Source: Candidatus Poribacteria bacterium
GTDB taxonomy: Bacteria > Poribacteria > WGA-4E > PCPOR2b
Length of the DNA: 37,014 nt
Reading direction: 5' to 3'
Assembly: GCA_021295755.1 (NCBI GenBank)
Contig: JAGWBT010000039.1
Coordinates: forward strand, 1 to 37,014
Under the pieces are notes generated by a model. That model saw only the letters and a list, made by a program, of their open reading frames with translations, was not told where the DNA came from and searched no databases. Position numbers and translations under genes: made by a program. This document shows positions 9,359 through 23,026 of the stretch, in pieces. How positions within the stretch are numbered: the stretch's first letter is position 1; every line of letters begins with the position of its first letter.

Positions 9359-10486
9359 ATGAAAATTCGGAATATTCAAGCCTTTCCGCTCGCCTACCCT
9401 GAACCACATTACAAAGGTATCGAGCGGTATATTACCCTCGCCCGTGTGGAGACGGAAGATGGGGTGGTCGGCTGGGGAGAATGTATTTCACAGTTTCGGG
9501 AAGCGGCACTAGCAACGAAGGTCATTATTGAACAGGGGCTTGCGCCGTTGCTCGTAGGTGAGGATGCGATAGATGTTGACCGGCTCTGGCATATAATGCA
9601 GTCCCGTATCTGGTGGTATGGACCGGAAGGGATTGCTGCCTTTGGCGTGAGTGCCTTGGACATGGCGCTCTGGGATGTGAAAGGGAAAGCGCTAGGCCTG
9701 CCTGTTTGCCGGCTGTTAGGGGGACAGTTGCACGACAAGGTCGTTGCTATGGCGTCCTTTATCTTTGACATGGAGGATTTCGACTGGACGCTCAATGAGT
9801 TTCGTTTCCTCCGAGAGGAAGGATATCAGGTTGTCAAAGCTGGTTGGGGTATGCGACCCGAAGCACTCTTCGGCCAAGACCGGCAGCGCGACCTCGAAAT
9901 TGTGCGGCGGGTACGGGAAGTTATTGGCGATGACTTGGAACTCATTGTTGATACACCTGGGCATCACCGGCTCTGGGACGTTCCGACAGCGATTCAGCGT
10001 TTTCGGGAGTTGGAGCCGTATCGACTCCGATGGATCGAGCAGCCACTCCCGTCTCATGATCTTGAAGGACACGCCCGACTGCGGGCGGCGGTTTCCACTC
10101 CGATCGGCACGGGTGAGGACGAATGGAACGTCGAGAGTTACCGGCGCCTGATTCAGTCAGGAGGCATTGATGTGGTGCAGATAGATCCTGGTCGTTGTCA
10201 CGGTATCACGGGCTCGTTCCATGTCATCAAACTTGTTGAGGCGGAAAGCCTGGAGTTCAGTTTTCACACGTGGAGCAGCGCCCTCAACACCGCTGCTAGT
10301 CTACACCTGCTGGCCGGCTCGACGCACGGTGTAGCAATGGACTTCAAGCCGCATGAGTCGCCGATGCAGCACGAGTTGGTCAGCGATCCGTGGGTTCAAG
10401 AGGATGGTTATCTCGCCGTGCGGGAAACCCCCGGCTTGGGGGTTCAGGTGCGCGAAGATACGGTGCAGAAGTATTTATTTAGTTGA
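9359..10486 (+). CDS. Mandelate racemase/muconate lactonizing enzyme family protein (enolase superfamily)
   Basis: This enzyme of about 375 residues is probably a sugar-acid dehydratase or epimerase that abstracts a proton alpha to a carboxylate with Mg2+. The N-terminal capping domain begins MKIRNIQAFPLAYPEPHYKG. The barrel domain starts with FGVSALDMALWDVKGKALG. Candidate catalytic and metal residues are the Lys in YQVVKAGWGM, metal ligands Asp (LIVDTPGHH), Glu (WIEQPLPSHD) and Glu/Asp (GTGEDEW), and the His in FSFHTWSSA. I prefer the ATG at 9359 because GAGGT lies 8 nt before it; an in-frame ATG at 9344 sits on top of that ribosome site. The gene ends 12 bp before the ROK kinase. Confidence 0.9.
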   Translation: MKIRNIQAFPLAYPEPHYKGIERYITLARVETEDGVVGWGECISQFREAALATKVIIEQGLAPLLVGEDAIDVDRLWHIMQSRIWWYGPEGIAAFGVSALDMALWDVKGKALGLPVCRLLGGQLHDKVVAMASFIFDMEDFDWTLNEFRFLREEGYQVVKAGWGMRPEALFGQDRQRDLEIVRRVREVIGDDLELIVDTPGHHRLWDVPTAIQRFRELEPYRLRWIEQPLPSHDLEGHARLRAAVSTPIGTGEDEWNVESYRRLIQSGGIDVVQIDPGRCHGITGSFHVIKLVEAESLEFSFHTWSSALNTAASLHLLAGSTHGVAMDFKPHESPMQHELVSDPWVQEDGYLAVRETPGLGVQVREDTVQKYLFS

Positions 10487-13048: not shown

Positions 13049-13094
13049 AGGTTGCTGAAATTAGCGATTGTGGACAAGAAACCTTGGAGGAGAT

Positions 13095-13946
13095 ATGCTA
13101 CGATATGTGTTCGCCGTGATGGTCCTTATATTTACGGCATCAATCTCGAAAGGCGTGGAGGTTGGAGATAGTGTTTTGCGGACGCCCATTACGTTCGGCG
13201 AGGCAGAGATCAAGTTCGCCGATTTTCATGGAAAATCTAACCTTATCGTTATAGGCGATATGGCGGAGCATTCAGAAGTGATCGCCCAATTGGAGCGGAG
13301 AGCAGCAAAGTATGATGCGACGCTTCTTCGTTTACAGGGGCTAGGCGAAATCCTAGTTATTGACAAGTCGGGGTATGTGCGTTGGAAGTTTCCTCACGCG
13401 TCCGACTCGGCACAGCCCACGATTGAAGAACTCGAATCTGAGCTAACAAAACTCAAACGCGACGAGCCACTGCCGATTGGTTCACCGGCGCCGGAGTTCA
13501 GACTCGTGGATGTGGAGAGTGGACTCCTTTTCAGTCTTTCCAAATACAAAGGGAAGAAGCACGTATTAGCGACGTTGCTGCTGCAAACCTACTGACCACA
13601 TTGTGCGAGGTTCACGTCGCAGGTTGCGGCGAATCACCAGTTATTTGATGAGGAGTATGAGACCGTTGTTATCGCTATTAAGCCCGAACCGAAGCCTGTT
13701 GTTTTTAGCTTCAAGGATCGGGTAATATCGACTCTCCCACTTCTAGCCGATCCGGGTTCCTCCGTTCACGAGGCATACGGAATTGTGAAGCCGTACCGTT
13801 TCCACAACCGAGATATGTATCTGCCGGCCACATTCCTCATTGATAAACAGGGTATCCTGAGATGGATGTACATCGGCGAAAATAACTCTGACCGTCCCAG
13901 TTTGGACTCGATTGTTGAACAACTTGAGCAATTGAACGCTGAATGA
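13095..13946 (+). CDS. Candidate selenoprotein: secreted two-domain redoxin with UxxC active site (in-frame TGA read as Sec)
   Basis: Read conventionally the gene stops at TGA 13593-13595. The same frame continues without interruption for 117 codons to TGA 13944-13946 and completes a thioredoxin/AhpC-TSA-type redoxin. The TGA falls exactly on the first position of the redox motif: LLLQTY-U-PHCARFTSQV, giving UPHC in place of CPHC. With Sec the protein is 283 residues, with Sec167. Residues 1-20 look like a signal peptide (basic start, then FAVMVLIF), so a periplasmic or exported location is likely. Residues 21-120 form a degenerate redoxin-like domain without cysteines. Residues 127-283 are the active domain, with GSPAPEFRLVDV at its start and the cis-proline in YLPATFLIDKQG (Pro244). 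GGAGG lies 4 nt before the ATG; an upstream TTG at 13068 is unlikely. A SECIS-like hairpin follows the TGA. The alternative, a nonsense pseudogene, is less likely because the stop sits at the catalytic position. Confidence 0.82.
13609..13635 (+). promoter_or_regulatory. Candidate bacterial SECIS element
   Basis: Twenty-five nt separate the in-frame TGA (13593-13595) from the apical loop, within the 16-37 nt range known for bacterial SECIS elements. The upper stem CGTCGC (13615-13620) pairs with GCGGCG (13626-13631, one T-G wobble) around the loop AGGTT (13621-13625), which has G in its first two positions. Below a two-base CA bulge, GGTT (13609-13612) pairs with AATC (13632-13635). The core GCAGGUUGC closely resembles the GCAGGUCUGC core of the E. 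coli fdhF SECIS. The structure was folded by eye. Confidence 0.75.
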
Positions 13947-16444: not shown

Positions 16445-17200
16445 TCAAACCGCTAAGATGAACCTCTGTGCCTCGTTCAAGCGAGCGTGCGTTTCCGGAT
16501 GGATAAATTTGCGTTGGTCAGTCAGTTGTTTATGATCGCGACGGCAGTAATAGGCGAGCATCCCGTGCCGTGGTGAATCGGCTTGATTTAATCCGCCAGC
16601 GTGCCAGAGATGCGAATTGAAGACAATAACAGTTCCTGCTGCTGCTATCAATTGAATTTCCTCTGGATGCTGTGTTGCATCTTCCAATGCGTCCTTGGGG
16701 TGTTTACCGCTACGATGGGAACCCGGTACAACCCGCGTTGCACCGTTCTCCTCCGTGAAATCGTCTAGTAGCCACATGGAGTTACAAACGTAGTAATCGC
16801 CCGGCTCCACCCCTGAACGCCAGTCTGCGTGAAACGCTTGGTGACCTTGCCCGGGCAGCGCCATCCGACAATCCAACGAGGACAACTTGAACCTAGGACC
16901 GATAACATGCTCTATGGCAGCAAGCACGCGCGGGTGTGAAAAGCCTATCTGGAACATTGGACCTTTATTGACAAGGTTGCTCACCCGGATTGTTCCGCCC
17001 TCCTGATGAAGTTCCTTGCCGGCGTCTTCTCCTTCCAGTTCCGCCAATTTGTCCAACCGACGAATCATGTTCGCAATCTGTTCTGGGGTGAGAATCTTCC
17101 CAAGTGGGAGATAGCCGTTTAGGTCCAAGAAGTCCTTTTCTTCTACCGATAGTGTGTCGTCCCGGACACCAGATTCTAGTAGGGCTTGATTCATGTTCAT
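16445..17200 (-). CDS. Phytanoyl-CoA dioxygenase family protein (PhyH 1)
   Basis: This 251-residue protein is an Fe(II)/2-oxoglutarate-dependent oxygenase of the PhyH family, which hydroxylates organic substrates while decarboxylating 2-oxoglutarate. The iron-binding facial triad is in FHADW (His and Asp) and SHLWHAGG (distal His), with RHGML giving the 2-oxoglutarate-binding Arg. RVVPGSHRSGKHP is the usual PhyH loop. The ATG at 17200 is chosen because GGAGAG lies 7 nt before it; the frame stays open further upstream, but that part overlaps the neighbouring PhyH gene and is unlike the family. It is the downstream member of three consecutive PhyH genes on this strand. Substrate unknown. Confidence 0.88.
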   Translation of the reverse strand: MNMNQALLESGVRDDTLSVEEKDFLDLNGYLPLGKILTPEQIANMIRRLDKLAELEGEDAGKELHQEGGTIRVSNLVNKGPMFQIGFSHPRVLAAIEHVIGPRFKLSSLDCRMALPGQGHQAFHADWRSGVEPGDYYVCNSMWLLDDFTEENGATRVVPGSHRSGKHPKDALEDATQHPEEIQLIAAAGTVIVFNSHLWHAGGLNQADSPRHGMLAYYCRRDHKQLTDQRKFIHPETHARLNEAQRFILAV

Positions 17201-17216
17201 TGTCGATCTCTCCAGT

Positions 17217-18104
17217 TTAGATTGGCTCTGTGGGAGTTCTTTTTGCCTGCCATATCTCCCAAGATTCGACCGTTTCGGGCTGCTGTTGACTGCGTGCGAT
17301 AAAACCGGGCCATTTCTGAAGCAACCATTCCAATGGACTACCTGTTGGACTGTAGCGCAGGTCGATACTCCAGCGAATATCATCACTGATATTCTCTAGG
17401 GACCGGTGAAAAGTAAGATTGCCGAACACGAGGATATCCCCCACCTTCATGCGCACGTTCTGGACCTCTCCCCAACTCTCAACATCCTCTATAGGAACGA
17501 GTCTGCCATTCTCATCACGGCGTGGCGGTCGAAGCCCCTGTTTGTGGCTTCCAGGAATTATTTGCAAGCAGCCGTTGTGTTCATCAACATCTACCATGGG
17601 GATCCATACGGTCAGAATTTGGCTCTCCTCCGAAAAAGTGACTCGTTGCCCCGGATCGGCGTTGCCATTGTAGTAGATGCTGTCTTGGTGCCACGGAAAG
17701 ACAGACTCTCCGCCGGTCGGCATTTTGAAGCGAATCCAATAATCTCCATTGACGGTGATCTCCGGACCAATAAGCGAGTCAACGATATCCAAGATTTTCG
17801 GATGCGTCAATAGTCCATAAACCTCGCGACTGAAGACCTCTTTATTCCAATTCCAGCCCAAAAGCGATCCCTTCTGAGACTCACGTTGAATGCGTGTCAA
17901 TCGATGGTAAAAGGAGAGATCTTCATACAGACTTGGGATTTTGCCTTGGTCGTAGAGTTTTTTGGCGTGATTGTCAATGGCAGCTGAAATGACCCTGCGA
18001 AGTGGGGCGAAGTCCCCTTCATCGAGCACACCACGAACCAGCAGATACCCCTGCTCGTCGAATGCTTGGCGTTGCGCTATAGCTATAGTTGACAAATTAT
18101 TCAT
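17217..18104 (-). CDS. Phytanoyl-CoA dioxygenase family protein (PhyH 2)
   Basis: This 295-residue protein is a second PhyH-type Fe(II)/2-oxoglutarate oxygenase. The opening AFDEQGYLLVRGVLDEGDF is the family start. The HxD motif is in FPWHQDSIYY, the substrate-loop motif in GCLQIIPGSHKQGL, and the distal His and 2-oxoglutarate Arg in LTFHRSLENISDDIRWSIDLRYSPTG. This C-terminal pattern matches family members that act on small soluble molecules, such as ectoine-hydroxylase-like enzymes. It ends 16 bp before PhyH 1 and follows PhyH 3 by 53 bp, so the three are likely one transcript. AGAAGG precedes the ATG, followed by a run of T. Confidence 0.92.
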   Translation of the reverse strand: MNNLSTIAIAQRQAFDEQGYLLVRGVLDEGDFAPLRRVISAAIDNHAKKLYDQGKIPSLYEDLSFYHRLTRIQRESQKGSLLGWNWNKEVFSREVYGLLTHPKILDIVDSLIGPEITVNGDYWIRFKMPTGGESVFPWHQDSIYYNGNADPGQRVTFSEESQILTVWIPMVDVDEHNGCLQIIPGSHKQGLRPPRRDENGRLVPIEDVESWGEVQNVRMKVGDILVFGNLTFHRSLENISDDIRWSIDLRYSPTGSPLEWLLQKWPGFIARSQQQPETVESWEIWQAKRTPTEPI

Positions 18105-18157
18105 AAAAAAAACCTTCTGTTCCGATTAGATCGGGATTCAAGTAAAGAGACATCCCG

Positions 18158-19000
18158 CTATCCCCAACGCTGCTCCGGTGGGTCAAATAGGAAACCGTGG
18201 AAGAGCTTACGTTGTTCTGGGGAAAGGCGGTTGTTGTAAAACCCTTTGGAATAGCCCCAATGCTCTTGGGATGCAATCATCCACGGATGCTCATAGGCAT
18301 AGTAGAGCATGAATCGGAAGCCGCCGGCTTGGGTAAACGGGCCCGCCGAATGCCAGAGGGCGTTGTGGAACAGAATGGCTGTCCCCGCAGGGGCGCAGAT
18401 CTGCACCGCGCCGGGAAACAGGTCAGGTCGCTGCAAATCATCTTGAGGTGGCTCGTGTGTTGCTTTGTGGCTCGCAGGGATGACGCAGAGATTTCCCTGT
18501 CCGGGCGATGTCATATCGTTCAGGTAGTAGCCGATCTTGAGTTGGAGAAAGGGAATCGGCGCACCAAGCCCACGGTATCCCTGATCGTGACCATCGATAT
18601 GCCACCCCATGCCTCGCTCCGTCAGGTCGGTGTCATACTCGACGATAGCATCGGAAGCGTGATGGTGAGGCATTTCGTTGAGTAGCCCCTTGACGTAAGA
18701 CATCATTGGGGACCAATCCAGCATCTCAAGAAACAGTGGATCATCGTCTAAGATATAAAAGATGCGGGTGCTTTTCTCACCCTTAATATCTGTTCTGCCG
18801 GTATGAGGGATTTCTTTTTGCTCTTTTTCACGTCGTTGAGCTATCACGCGAAACAGCGCCTCTCGGAGTTCGTTAACGTGGCTTTGCGCCAAGAAGTTTT
18901 CCAGTACCAGATAGCCGTTATTGTCGAAAAAGAAGCGATCTGATGGTGTTGGTCCCCTTTCTTCTGTTGAACACGATACATGTACATTCTTCTCTGACAT
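18158..19000 (-). CDS. Phytanoyl-CoA dioxygenase family protein (PhyH 3)
   Basis: This 280-residue protein is a third PhyH-type oxygenase. FFFDNNGYLVLENFLAQSHVNELREALFR is its N-terminal family segment. The iron-binding HxD lies in GMGWHIDGHDQGYRG, GNLCVIPASHKATHEPP is the central loop, and ILFHNALWHSAGPFTQAGGFRFMLYYAYEHPW has the distal His and probable 2-oxoglutarate-binding Arg. It is clearly different from PhyH 1 and PhyH 2, so the cluster is not a recent tandem duplication. The ATG at 19000 follows AGAGG; a longer frame from 19048 adds a basic tail without family match. Substrate unknown. Confidence 0.9.
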   Translation of the reverse strand: MSEKNVHVSCSTEERGPTPSDRFFFDNNGYLVLENFLAQSHVNELREALFRVIAQRREKEQKEIPHTGRTDIKGEKSTRIFYILDDDPLFLEMLDWSPMMSYVKGLLNEMPHHHASDAIVEYDTDLTERGMGWHIDGHDQGYRGLGAPIPFLQLKIGYYLNDMTSPGQGNLCVIPASHKATHEPPQDDLQRPDLFPGAVQICAPAGTAILFHNALWHSAGPFTQAGGFRFMLYYAYEHPWMIASQEHWGYSKGFYNNRLSPEQRKLFHGFLFDPPEQRWG

Positions 19001-19052
19001 AATATGGGTTCCTCTGCGCTTGTGGTTATGTTTACTAAAGTGATTCACTCGT

Positions 19053-19890: not shown

Positions 19891-20844
19891 CTATACCAAT
19901 GCGCCGGTACAGGAGGACCCGCTCCCCGCTGTACAGCCAAAACAGTAATTTCCGGTGACAATTCTCCGGCGCGCAAACAGGTCCGGATCGAAATCTTTTA
20001 TATGTTGCGGCAGGCCTTTTTCCACTGGCAACTTGAGTGCTAAGTTGAAATCACAGTCGTACATGCTCCCATCCCACCCAATGTTGATCTGATGGCGACA
20101 CATCAATCCATCTAGGGTTGCCGAGTTAAAGGAATCTCGGAGGAGTTGATTATATATCTCGAGCCGATTCTCACGCTTTAGGTCGCTGCGAAAGCGGCCG
20201 ATAGGCATATTGGCAATTGTCAGTAGATGGGTAAATTCTATGCCGTATTTTGATCGCAGCTCTTCTCTGTAGTCTACTTCAAGTTCAGCTTGCTCAGGAG
20301 GCAGTATGGGACCGACAGGGTTGTATACGAGGTTCAGGGGAAGGTGGGGCACGATGCCATATCCATAGCTGTTGAGGCGCTTTAATGCCTTGATACTATC
20401 CTCAAAAACACCTGTGCCGCGCTGCGTATCAACATTCTCTTCAAGGTAACAAGGCAGAGACGCGCAAAGTTGCACTGACTGCTCTTGGAAGAAAATAGGG
20501 AAGGATTCAAAGCCGGGCTGAAGTAAAATCGTAAGATTGGTTCTCACCATGACGGGGAACCCTTTTTCCCGCACTGTTTTCACAAACCGACGAAACTGTG
20601 GGTGCATTTCTGGTGCGCCGCCTGTAATATCTATTAACTTGGCGTTTGTCTTTTCTGCCGCAGCTATCACATGCTCCATCGTTTCCCAATCCATCATCTC
20701 TTTCCGTCGTGGCGAGGATACTACATGGCAATGGGCGCACTCCAGATTACACTTCAGCCCGATGTTTACTTGGATCGTCTCAATGTCCAAGCTGTGCAGC
20801 CCTTTTCCATTGTAATTTGCGATCGCCTTTTCAAACCCATTCAT
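19891..20844 (-). CDS. Radical SAM protein, ArsS-like (arsenosugar biosynthesis/DUF3641 family)
   Basis: This 317-residue radical SAM enzyme has the [4Fe-4S] motif CNLECAHCHV (CxxxCxxC) near residue 33, the SAM-binding ITGGAPEMHPQFR (GGE-like) motif, and a Cys-rich C-terminal domain. That domain has CRHQINIGWDGSMYDCDFN and NYCFGCTAGSGSSCTGA, the hallmark of ArsS/DUF3641 proteins. ArsS transfers the 5'-deoxyadenosyl group of SAM to dimethylated arsenic during arsenosugar synthesis; some family members carry selenocysteine in the Cys-rich region, and this one has cysteines. No arsenic methyltransferase (arsM) is in the window, so the substrate could be another element or small molecule. AAGGAG lies 9 nt before the ATG. 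MTA phosphorylase is divergently transcribed 299 bp away. Confidence 0.87.
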   Translation of the reverse strand: MNGFEKAIANYNGKGLHSLDIETIQVNIGLKCNLECAHCHVVSSPRRKEMMDWETMEHVIAAAEKTNAKLIDITGGAPEMHPQFRRFVKTVREKGFPVMVRTNLTILLQPGFESFPIFFQEQSVQLCASLPCYLEENVDTQRGTGVFEDSIKALKRLNSYGYGIVPHLPLNLVYNPVGPILPPEQAELEVDYREELRSKYGIEFTHLLTIANMPIGRFRSDLKRENRLEIYNQLLRDSFNSATLDGLMCRHQINIGWDGSMYDCDFNLALKLPVEKGLPQHIKDFDPDLFARRRIVTGNYCFGCTAGSGSSCTGALV

Positions 20845-22018: not shown

Positions 22019-23026
22019 TTATTGGGCTTCGAGTGTTGCGAGTAGGTCGGCTGCCCGCTCCCGCTTCGCTGGATCAGTATCGCGGGCGACGATCCGCTGG
22101 AGAACCGAGATTGAGCCTTTGTCGCCCTTTTCCGCCATCTCCAACCCCATCTCATCCCGTTTTTCATGGTAGCTATTGTCGTATTCCTTGACCTCCATAT
22201 TCCATTTCTGCCAGTAGTATTGCAGATCGTTTGGGGGCCAGTCGGTATAAATTTCTTCCCAAGTGGCTGGCTGGGCGTGTGGTAGCAAGCTGCCCGGCGC
22301 AATTGGATCGCTGATTTTCTGGTATCTGGCATCGATTGACATGCGGAGCTGGTCGCTGGAGTTGGACACGCCTTTGTGGACCGCCATGCTATGAAATATC
22401 AAAACGTCTCCCTGCTCAAATGGACTGTTTACCCAAGTTCCCTCAAGTGGGTCGGTGACTGCAATGCCACCTGCACCCATCGCGGGTTTAAAGTCGTAGA
22501 TACCTTTCCGATGCGAGCCGGACGCAATCTGGAGTCCGCCTAATTCCGGCGGTATGTCGCTCAGTGGTATCCATGCGGTATAGGTGTCCGCTGTGCCTTG
22601 AATGGGTATAAAGTCTTGATGTGGTGGGGTGGTGAAAACCTCCCGTTGTGGGAAAATTGTTCGCCCGATGATGCGTGCATGGGGCATCACTGGTTCACTT
22701 AGTATCCGTTCCATCACTCCCATCACGTTAGGGTGATGCTGTAGTGCCTGAAACTCTTGGAGTTTGTACATGTGAAAATACACGCCCATGTACTCCGGTT
22801 GCGGCTCGACGCAAAAGCTGTCTGGGTCTGCGATAGCGTCCTCCAACGGTGAGTTTTTCTTAACCCAGCCCGCGTCGCGTGCGATCTCAAGACACTGCAA
22901 CCGTAAGCTTTCCAGCACCTCGGTGGGAAGCAATCCACGGATGAATAGGTATCCGTCTCGCTGTGCGCGTTTCCGTAGTTCAAGTTCATCGTTCACAACA
23001 TCTGTCGAATCGAGAAAAGGTTGCAT
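22019..23026 (-). CDS. Phytanoyl-CoA dioxygenase family protein (PhyH 4)
   Basis: This 335-residue protein is a fourth PhyH-type Fe(II)/2-oxoglutarate oxygenase, longer than the others. RAQRDGYLFIRGLLPTEVLES is the family opening. TTPPHQDFIPIQG has the HxD motif, LGGLQIASGSHRKGIYDF the central loop, and MAVHKGVSNSSDQLRMSIDARYQ the distal His and 2-oxoglutarate-binding Arg. The C-terminal 100 residues (DWPPNDLQYYWQKWNMEVKEYDN onward) form an extra charged extension. AGGAGGGAACC just before the ATG is an excellent ribosome site. It is separated from the other three by mtnP and the ArsS/MBL pair, and its substrate is unknown. Confidence 0.92.
   Translation of the reverse strand: MQPFLDSTDVVNDELELRKRAQRDGYLFIRGLLPTEVLESLRLQCLEIARDAGWVKKNSPLEDAIADPDSFCVEPQPEYMGVYFHMYKLQEFQALQHHPNVMGVMERILSEPVMPHARIIGRTIFPQREVFTTPPHQDFIPIQGTADTYTAWIPLSDIPPELGGLQIASGSHRKGIYDFKPAMGAGGIAVTDPLEGTWVNSPFEQGDVLIFHSMAVHKGVSNSSDQLRMSIDARYQKISDPIAPGSLLPHAQPATWEEIYTDWPPNDLQYYWQKWNMEVKEYDNSYHEKRDEMGLEMAEKGDKGSISVLQRIVARDTDPAKRERAADLLATLEAQ

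Follow-up and report, generated by a model that had tools for sequence, protein, structure and literature searches.

The window, by which we mean the whole stretch of 37,014 nucleotides that was analysed (contig JAGWBT010000039.1 from the genome of a sponge-associated bacterium, Candidatus Poribacteria), contains a gene whose frame opens with ATG at 13095, is interrupted by a TGA at codon 167, and then continues for 116 codons to a terminal TGA at 13944–13946 (Table 1). The initial annotation, made from the sequence alone, had described this frame as broken by one TGA and had found no start with a ribosome site from which the downstream half could be translated, and both statements were borne out. 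The first in-frame ATG, GTG, or TTG after the TGA at 13593 is at 13785, and no downstream start is preceded by a convincing ribosome site. When the TGA is read through, residues 128–257 match the Pfam family AhpC-TSA (PF00578) with 66 bits (cut-off 26, E = 3.5e-18), a match that spans codon 167 and therefore places the TGA within a domain. There are two TGAs in the window with at least 115 open in-frame codons on either side; the other one, at 10484, is the ordinary boundary of two adjacent genes. The GC content by codon position is unchanged across the interruption (0.58/0.37/0.55 before the TGA and 0.57/0.35/0.53 after it). A standard annotation would probably end the protein at residue 166, with the catalytic domain lost.

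Table 1. Features of the predicted selenoprotein gene in the window
Feature	Coordinates	Strand	Evidence
Ribosome-binding site GGAGG	13086..13090	+	4 nt 5' of ATG; read directly
Predicted selenoprotein gene, 283 residues and terminal TGA, Sec at residue 167	13095..13946	+	19 orthologues
Hydrophobic, signal-peptide-like N-terminus (MLRYVFAVMVLIFTASISKG), residues ~1–21	13095..13157	+	Sequence
Decayed tandem redoxin domain, residues ~22–122, active-site region lost	13158..13460	+	hhalign; blastp in orthologue L069
Catalytic AhpC/TSA-redoxin domain with T-Y-U-P-H-C and Y-L-P244-A-T	13461..13943	+	Pfam; Foldseek; CxxC-paralogue alignment
In-frame TGA, predicted to be read as selenocysteine (residue 167)	13593..13595	+	TGA in 19/19 orthologues; alignment with first Cys of CxxC
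Cys170 codon (TGT), second of UxxC, presumed resolving Cys	13602..13604	+	Invariant in A1 and A4
SECIS-like hairpin CGUCGC-AGGUU-GCGGCG	13615..13631	+	Synonymous constraint; synonym-shuffle folding; bacterial SECIS constraints (PMC13188914)

Full-length or nearly full-length orthologues were found in 19 of 85 Poribacteria genomes. Six of these are the full set from the window's genus, and the rest are scattered. Codon 167 is TGA in every one of them (46–76% identity), none carries a cysteine codon there, and the 85 genomes yielded no member of the orthologous family with Cys instead. Within the matched region, the 19 orthologues contain no other stop. Their terminal stop varies between TGA, TAG, and TAA, whereas the internal TGA never does. 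Compared with the five same-genus orthologues, the dN/dS ratio after the TGA is 0.044–0.101; the coding sequence 3' of the TGA is under purifying selection, and selection is evident on both sides of it. A scan of named records with two conserved peptide patterns returned close relatives at 17 loci, all in Candidatus Poribacteria metagenome-assembled genomes; because only these two patterns were used, remote relatives in other phyla could escape it. No relative was found in viral contigs, and the redoxins found on plasmids were all distant (no more than about 33% identity among the matches listed).

The genome to which the window belongs encodes the machinery for selenocysteine insertion. selA, selB, and a tRNA-Sec with anticodon UCA lie in one cluster on contig C53, and selD is also present and has an in-frame TGA of its own. 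Across the phylum, selA occurs in 72 of the 85 genomes; among the 19 with the present gene, 17 have it, the two exceptions (G008 and G060) being one 730-contig and one 81%-complete assembly. The co-occurrence of SelA and SelB has been reported in most sponge-symbiont bins (PMC5649159), and the gene described here supplies a concrete client for the sel genes of sponge-symbiont Poribacteria.

Together, these data indicate that the gene almost certainly encodes a true selenoprotein whose internal UGA is read as Sec. Three observations had been named in the initial annotation as speaking against this reading, namely a genome without sel genes, homologues with random stops elsewhere, and a TGA misread from TGC or TGT, and none of them was encountered. 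An assembly or sequencing error, for which one could point to the 257 contigs of the window's assembly, has a negligible probability: the same TGA is seen in assemblies made independently by several projects, and its presence in two single-contig chromosomes (OY282444.1 and OX639973.1) means that it is not a sequencing error. Scarcely better placed is an ordinary nonsense mutation in a pseudogene. TGA is indeed a stop in table 11, and one relative (G048, contig C1 near 3858420, locus L106) carries a decayed copy downstream of a tsaB-like gene, its frame broken and its C-terminus still readable, apparently a recent loss; the identical TGA in 19 orthologues already refutes this explanation for the window gene, and the purifying selection after the TGA and the unchanged codon-position GC argue against it as well. 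Finally, the UGA might be decoded by generic read-through or under a reassigned code. A UGA followed by C, as here, is a weak termination context. The same gene, however, uses TGA as its terminal stop, which excludes a global reassignment of UGA, and the complete Sec machinery and the location of the UGA at the catalytic Cys position make decoding other than as Sec very improbable.

We examined the sequence 3' of the UGA against the published bacterial SECIS model, which specifies a loop of 3–9 nt, an upper stem of 4–16 bp, a G at the first or second loop position, a gap of 16–37 nt between UGA and loop, and a minimum free energy (MFE) of at most −7.5 kcal/mol (quoted in PMC13188914). The hairpin lies within all four published constraints. 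Its loop has 5 nt (3 nt if A-U closes) on a stem of 6–7 bp and begins 26 nt after the UGA, with 25 nt between them. The loop AGGUU contains a G that is invariant in the 19 orthologues, and the MFE of positions +12 to +45 is −12.0 kcal/mol in the window gene; three orthologues (L017, L018, and L020) reach only −6.0 kcal/mol over the same positions.

Two tests provided clear support for the hairpin. In the first, synonymous codon identity across 18 orthologues was scored against codon-usage expectation in 5-codon windows. Conservation was maximal at codons +7 to +11, with an excess of 0.58 (mean of all windows 0.15, SD 0.095); these codons, the most constrained five in the alignment, are exactly the hairpin. 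A second peak covers codons −2 to +2, i.e. the UGA itself. In the other test, positions +12 to +45 were folded and compared with 1000 synonymous shuffles, and all 19 orthologues were more stable than their shuffles (p = 0.004–0.047; z = −3.07 and p = 0.007 for the window gene), although these are related sequences and not 19 independent tests. The more distant Sec paralogue family L029–L036 gave no significant result in this test of folding (p = 0.21–0.89), and the argument from the hairpin is therefore restricted to orthologues of this gene.

Other analyses were less favourable. An unconstrained local fold prefers a competing UGCGA/UCGCA pairing (z = −0.48), with a probability of 0.10 for the core hairpin, and for the hairpin to come out as the best fold, the first 11 nt have to be omitted as lying inside the ribosome. 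A masking of about 11 nt by the ribosome is an assumption. Covariation in the stem is thin: both partners have changed at one pair (GC to AU in L025), and 12 of the 17 distinct sequences do not form the outer stem pair. With all 57 nt left free, RNAalifold preferred another structure. RNAalifold and the pair counts are weak, and we did not take them as proof; only the synonymous-constraint and synonym-shuffle tests count as clear support. Rfam returned no match on the gene, as expected, since to our knowledge it has no general family for bacterial SECIS elements. The SECIS-like hairpin proposed in the initial annotation thus stands in its position, its AGGUU loop, and the statistics of constraint and folding, but it competes with another fold when unconstrained, and the fdhF-like AGGUU loop is found in only two orthologues, most having AGUUU.

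The N-terminal half of the protein had received no comment in the initial annotation. Its first residues are hydrophobic, which suggests export, and the confidence of the structure prediction is low at residues 6–19. Profile comparison of residues 20–122 with residues 123–283 using hhalign gave a probability of 98.0% (E = 1.8e-13). In L069, an orthologue with a better preserved N-domain, this domain scores above the Pfam AhpC-TSA cut-off and is 37% identical to the C-domain over 131 columns (blastp, E = 1e-20). Its active-site positions read QTQQID against QTYUIFC, and the corresponding region is largely gone in the window protein. Judged by these comparisons, the redoxin domain was duplicated, and the copy that forms the N-terminal half has decayed.

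The catalytic domain carries the predicted selenocysteine where a thioredoxin-type protein carries its first active-site cysteine. U167 aligns with the first Cys of the CxxC motif in three paralogues from the same genome (L094, L096, and L097), and Cys170 aligns with the second, in agreement with the position proposed for the TGA from the sequence alone. As no Cys orthologue was found, this Cys/Sec pairing rests on more distant relatives. U167-x-x-C170 and P244 are invariant, and the domain thus has the UxxC motif and the proline at the cis-proline position that characterize thioredoxin-type oxidoreductases; in peroxiredoxins, the position of Pro244 is occupied by the catalytic Arg. In the predicted structure (mean pLDDT 77.5, pTM 0.73), U167 falls between a strand and the beginning of a helix. 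The window protein exceeded no NCBIfam cut-off; its top match was ResA (NF002854, 43.2 bits against a cut-off of 170), and the SelL-related redox protein (NF040769) scored 34.2 bits against 120.

An earlier reading as "reductase or peroxidase" can be narrowed with these data. The protein is probably an exported thiol-disulfide oxidoreductase rather than a peroxidase, thiol-disulfide exchange being favoured by about two to one because of the UxxC motif, the Pro in place of Arg, and the missing peroxiredoxin signature. That the selenoprotein instead reduces peroxides, as a Prx-like enzyme, is possible but less likely. Such a role would fit the best Pfam match, AhpC-TSA, and the Foldseek search with the catalytic domain, in which Bcp-type and other peroxiredoxins were the best structural matches; Sec-containing Prx (PF00578, TxxU) is, moreover, among the experimentally verified selenoprotein families (PMC13188914). 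Yet the signature PxxxT/SxxC(U) and the catalytic Arg are both absent, T-Y-U-P-H-C being found instead, together with a Pro as in thioredoxin-type oxidoreductases, U occupies the first position of a CxxC-like motif, and ResA, though under its cut-off, is the top NCBIfam match.

We propose that an exported tandem redoxin, with Sec inserted under the direction of the hairpin and a function in disulfide chemistry, is the best explanation of the locus as a whole, with a probability of roughly 0.9. This agrees with the Sec-containing exported protein of the initial annotation, for which the orthologous TGA, the sel genes, and the constrained hairpin provide support, whereas export is inferred from the N-terminus. 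On arrival of the ribosome at the UGA at 13593, the hairpin about 20 nt downstream would recruit SelB with Sec-tRNASec(UCA), selenocysteine would be inserted, and translation would proceed as far as the TGA at 13944. Once mature, the protein would be a tandem thioredoxin fold, consisting of a decayed, non-catalytic N-terminal redoxin domain and a catalytic domain with U167-x-x-C170 and Pro244. The latter would most likely reduce or shuffle disulfides on substrates outside the cytoplasm by ResA/TlpA-like chemistry, in which the selenolate would act as nucleophile and Cys170 as the resolving residue.

UxxC selenoproteins among PF00578/PF08534 proteins are already established (PMC2398784, PMC13188914). 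The Prx-like thiol:disulfide oxidoreductase/Redoxin selenoproteins (Table 1 of PMC13188914; "Prx-like 1" and "Prx-like 3" of PMC2398784) share the fold family and UxxC with the present protein. As described, they are set apart from it by its tandem arrangement with a decayed N-domain, its T-Y-U-P-x-C motif, and its LADPGSSVHEAYG and FH-x-x-DMYLPAT blocks, and orthologues of the present gene were found only in Poribacteria. The SelL-related redox protein has the redoxin C-terminal region in common with it and was matched by 18 of 18 aligned orthologues, but the window protein falls far under that cut-off. ResA/TlpA oxidoreductases resemble it in the position of CxxC, the Pro before the last strands, and probable export; here, Sec replaces Cys, there is an extra N-terminal domain, and the ResA score stays well below its cut-off. 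The Bcp/PrxQ and AhpE peroxiredoxins (3drn, 3hjp, and 1xvw) are alike in overall fold (target-normalised TM-score 0.83–0.88), whereas the present protein lacks the PxxxTxxC signature and the catalytic Arg. In the literature searched, no paper combined "Poribacteria" with "selenoprotein". The gene appears to represent a new, Poribacteria-only subfamily within the known UxxC redoxin selenoproteins. Going further, there is perhaps an even chance that this subfamily, specific to Poribacteria and missed by current annotation models, serves a selenium-dependent extracytoplasmic redox pathway, with one half of the tandem decayed and given over to substrate binding or dimerisation and the other locked to Sec; the latter is suggested by the search, which found no Cys version, and by the gene having been lost rather than converted.

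The gene had also been placed inside a sugar-acid operon. This is true of the window's genus, in which it belongs to a conserved sugar-acid cluster, with an aldo/keto reductase gene on one side and a gene of the enolase superfamily on the other; within the genus, the protein is 68–75% identical, compared with mostly 80–95% for the other cluster proteins. In the other genera examined, it follows closely on a tsaB-like gene (Pfam TsaD family), in some with one intervening gene, and mostly lies upstream of a polysaccharide flippase-like gene. Because the sugar-acid setting is confined to the window's genus, it says little about function, and we rejected the cluster as a functional guide.

Further candidate selenoproteins were noted in the same genome, in which 6 of 14 AhpC/TSA matches carry an in-frame TGA, so that Sec-based redox chemistry looks substantial in the lineage. 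At C33:31708–32529 (L092 and L093), one frame encodes a tandem pair of Bcp/PrxQ-like domains, both of which contain the motif FTGGU with its in-frame TGA, making its product a candidate double-selenocysteine peroxiredoxin. In-frame TGAs also occur in AhpC/TSA matches at C14:5127 (L095, WUPNS), C118:7256 (L098, WUGSC), and C33:4852 (L101, YUPKD), and in L098 and L101 the TGA is closely followed by a hairpin, with GGA or AGUU as the loop. A widespread short redoxin family with FFRGTWUPNSRRQL and TGA at the Sec position comprises L029–L036 and many unlisted Poribacteria loci; UxxS AhpC/TSA selenoproteins have been listed (PMC13188914). Elsewhere in the window, several genes on the minus strand (16445–19048 and 22019–23026) resemble phytanoyl-CoA dioxygenase (PhyH) by eye. 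Another minus-strand gene, at 19891–20844, resembles by eye the radical SAM family TIGR04167, for which selenoprotein forms are listed (PMC13188914), and its frame runs without an internal stop.
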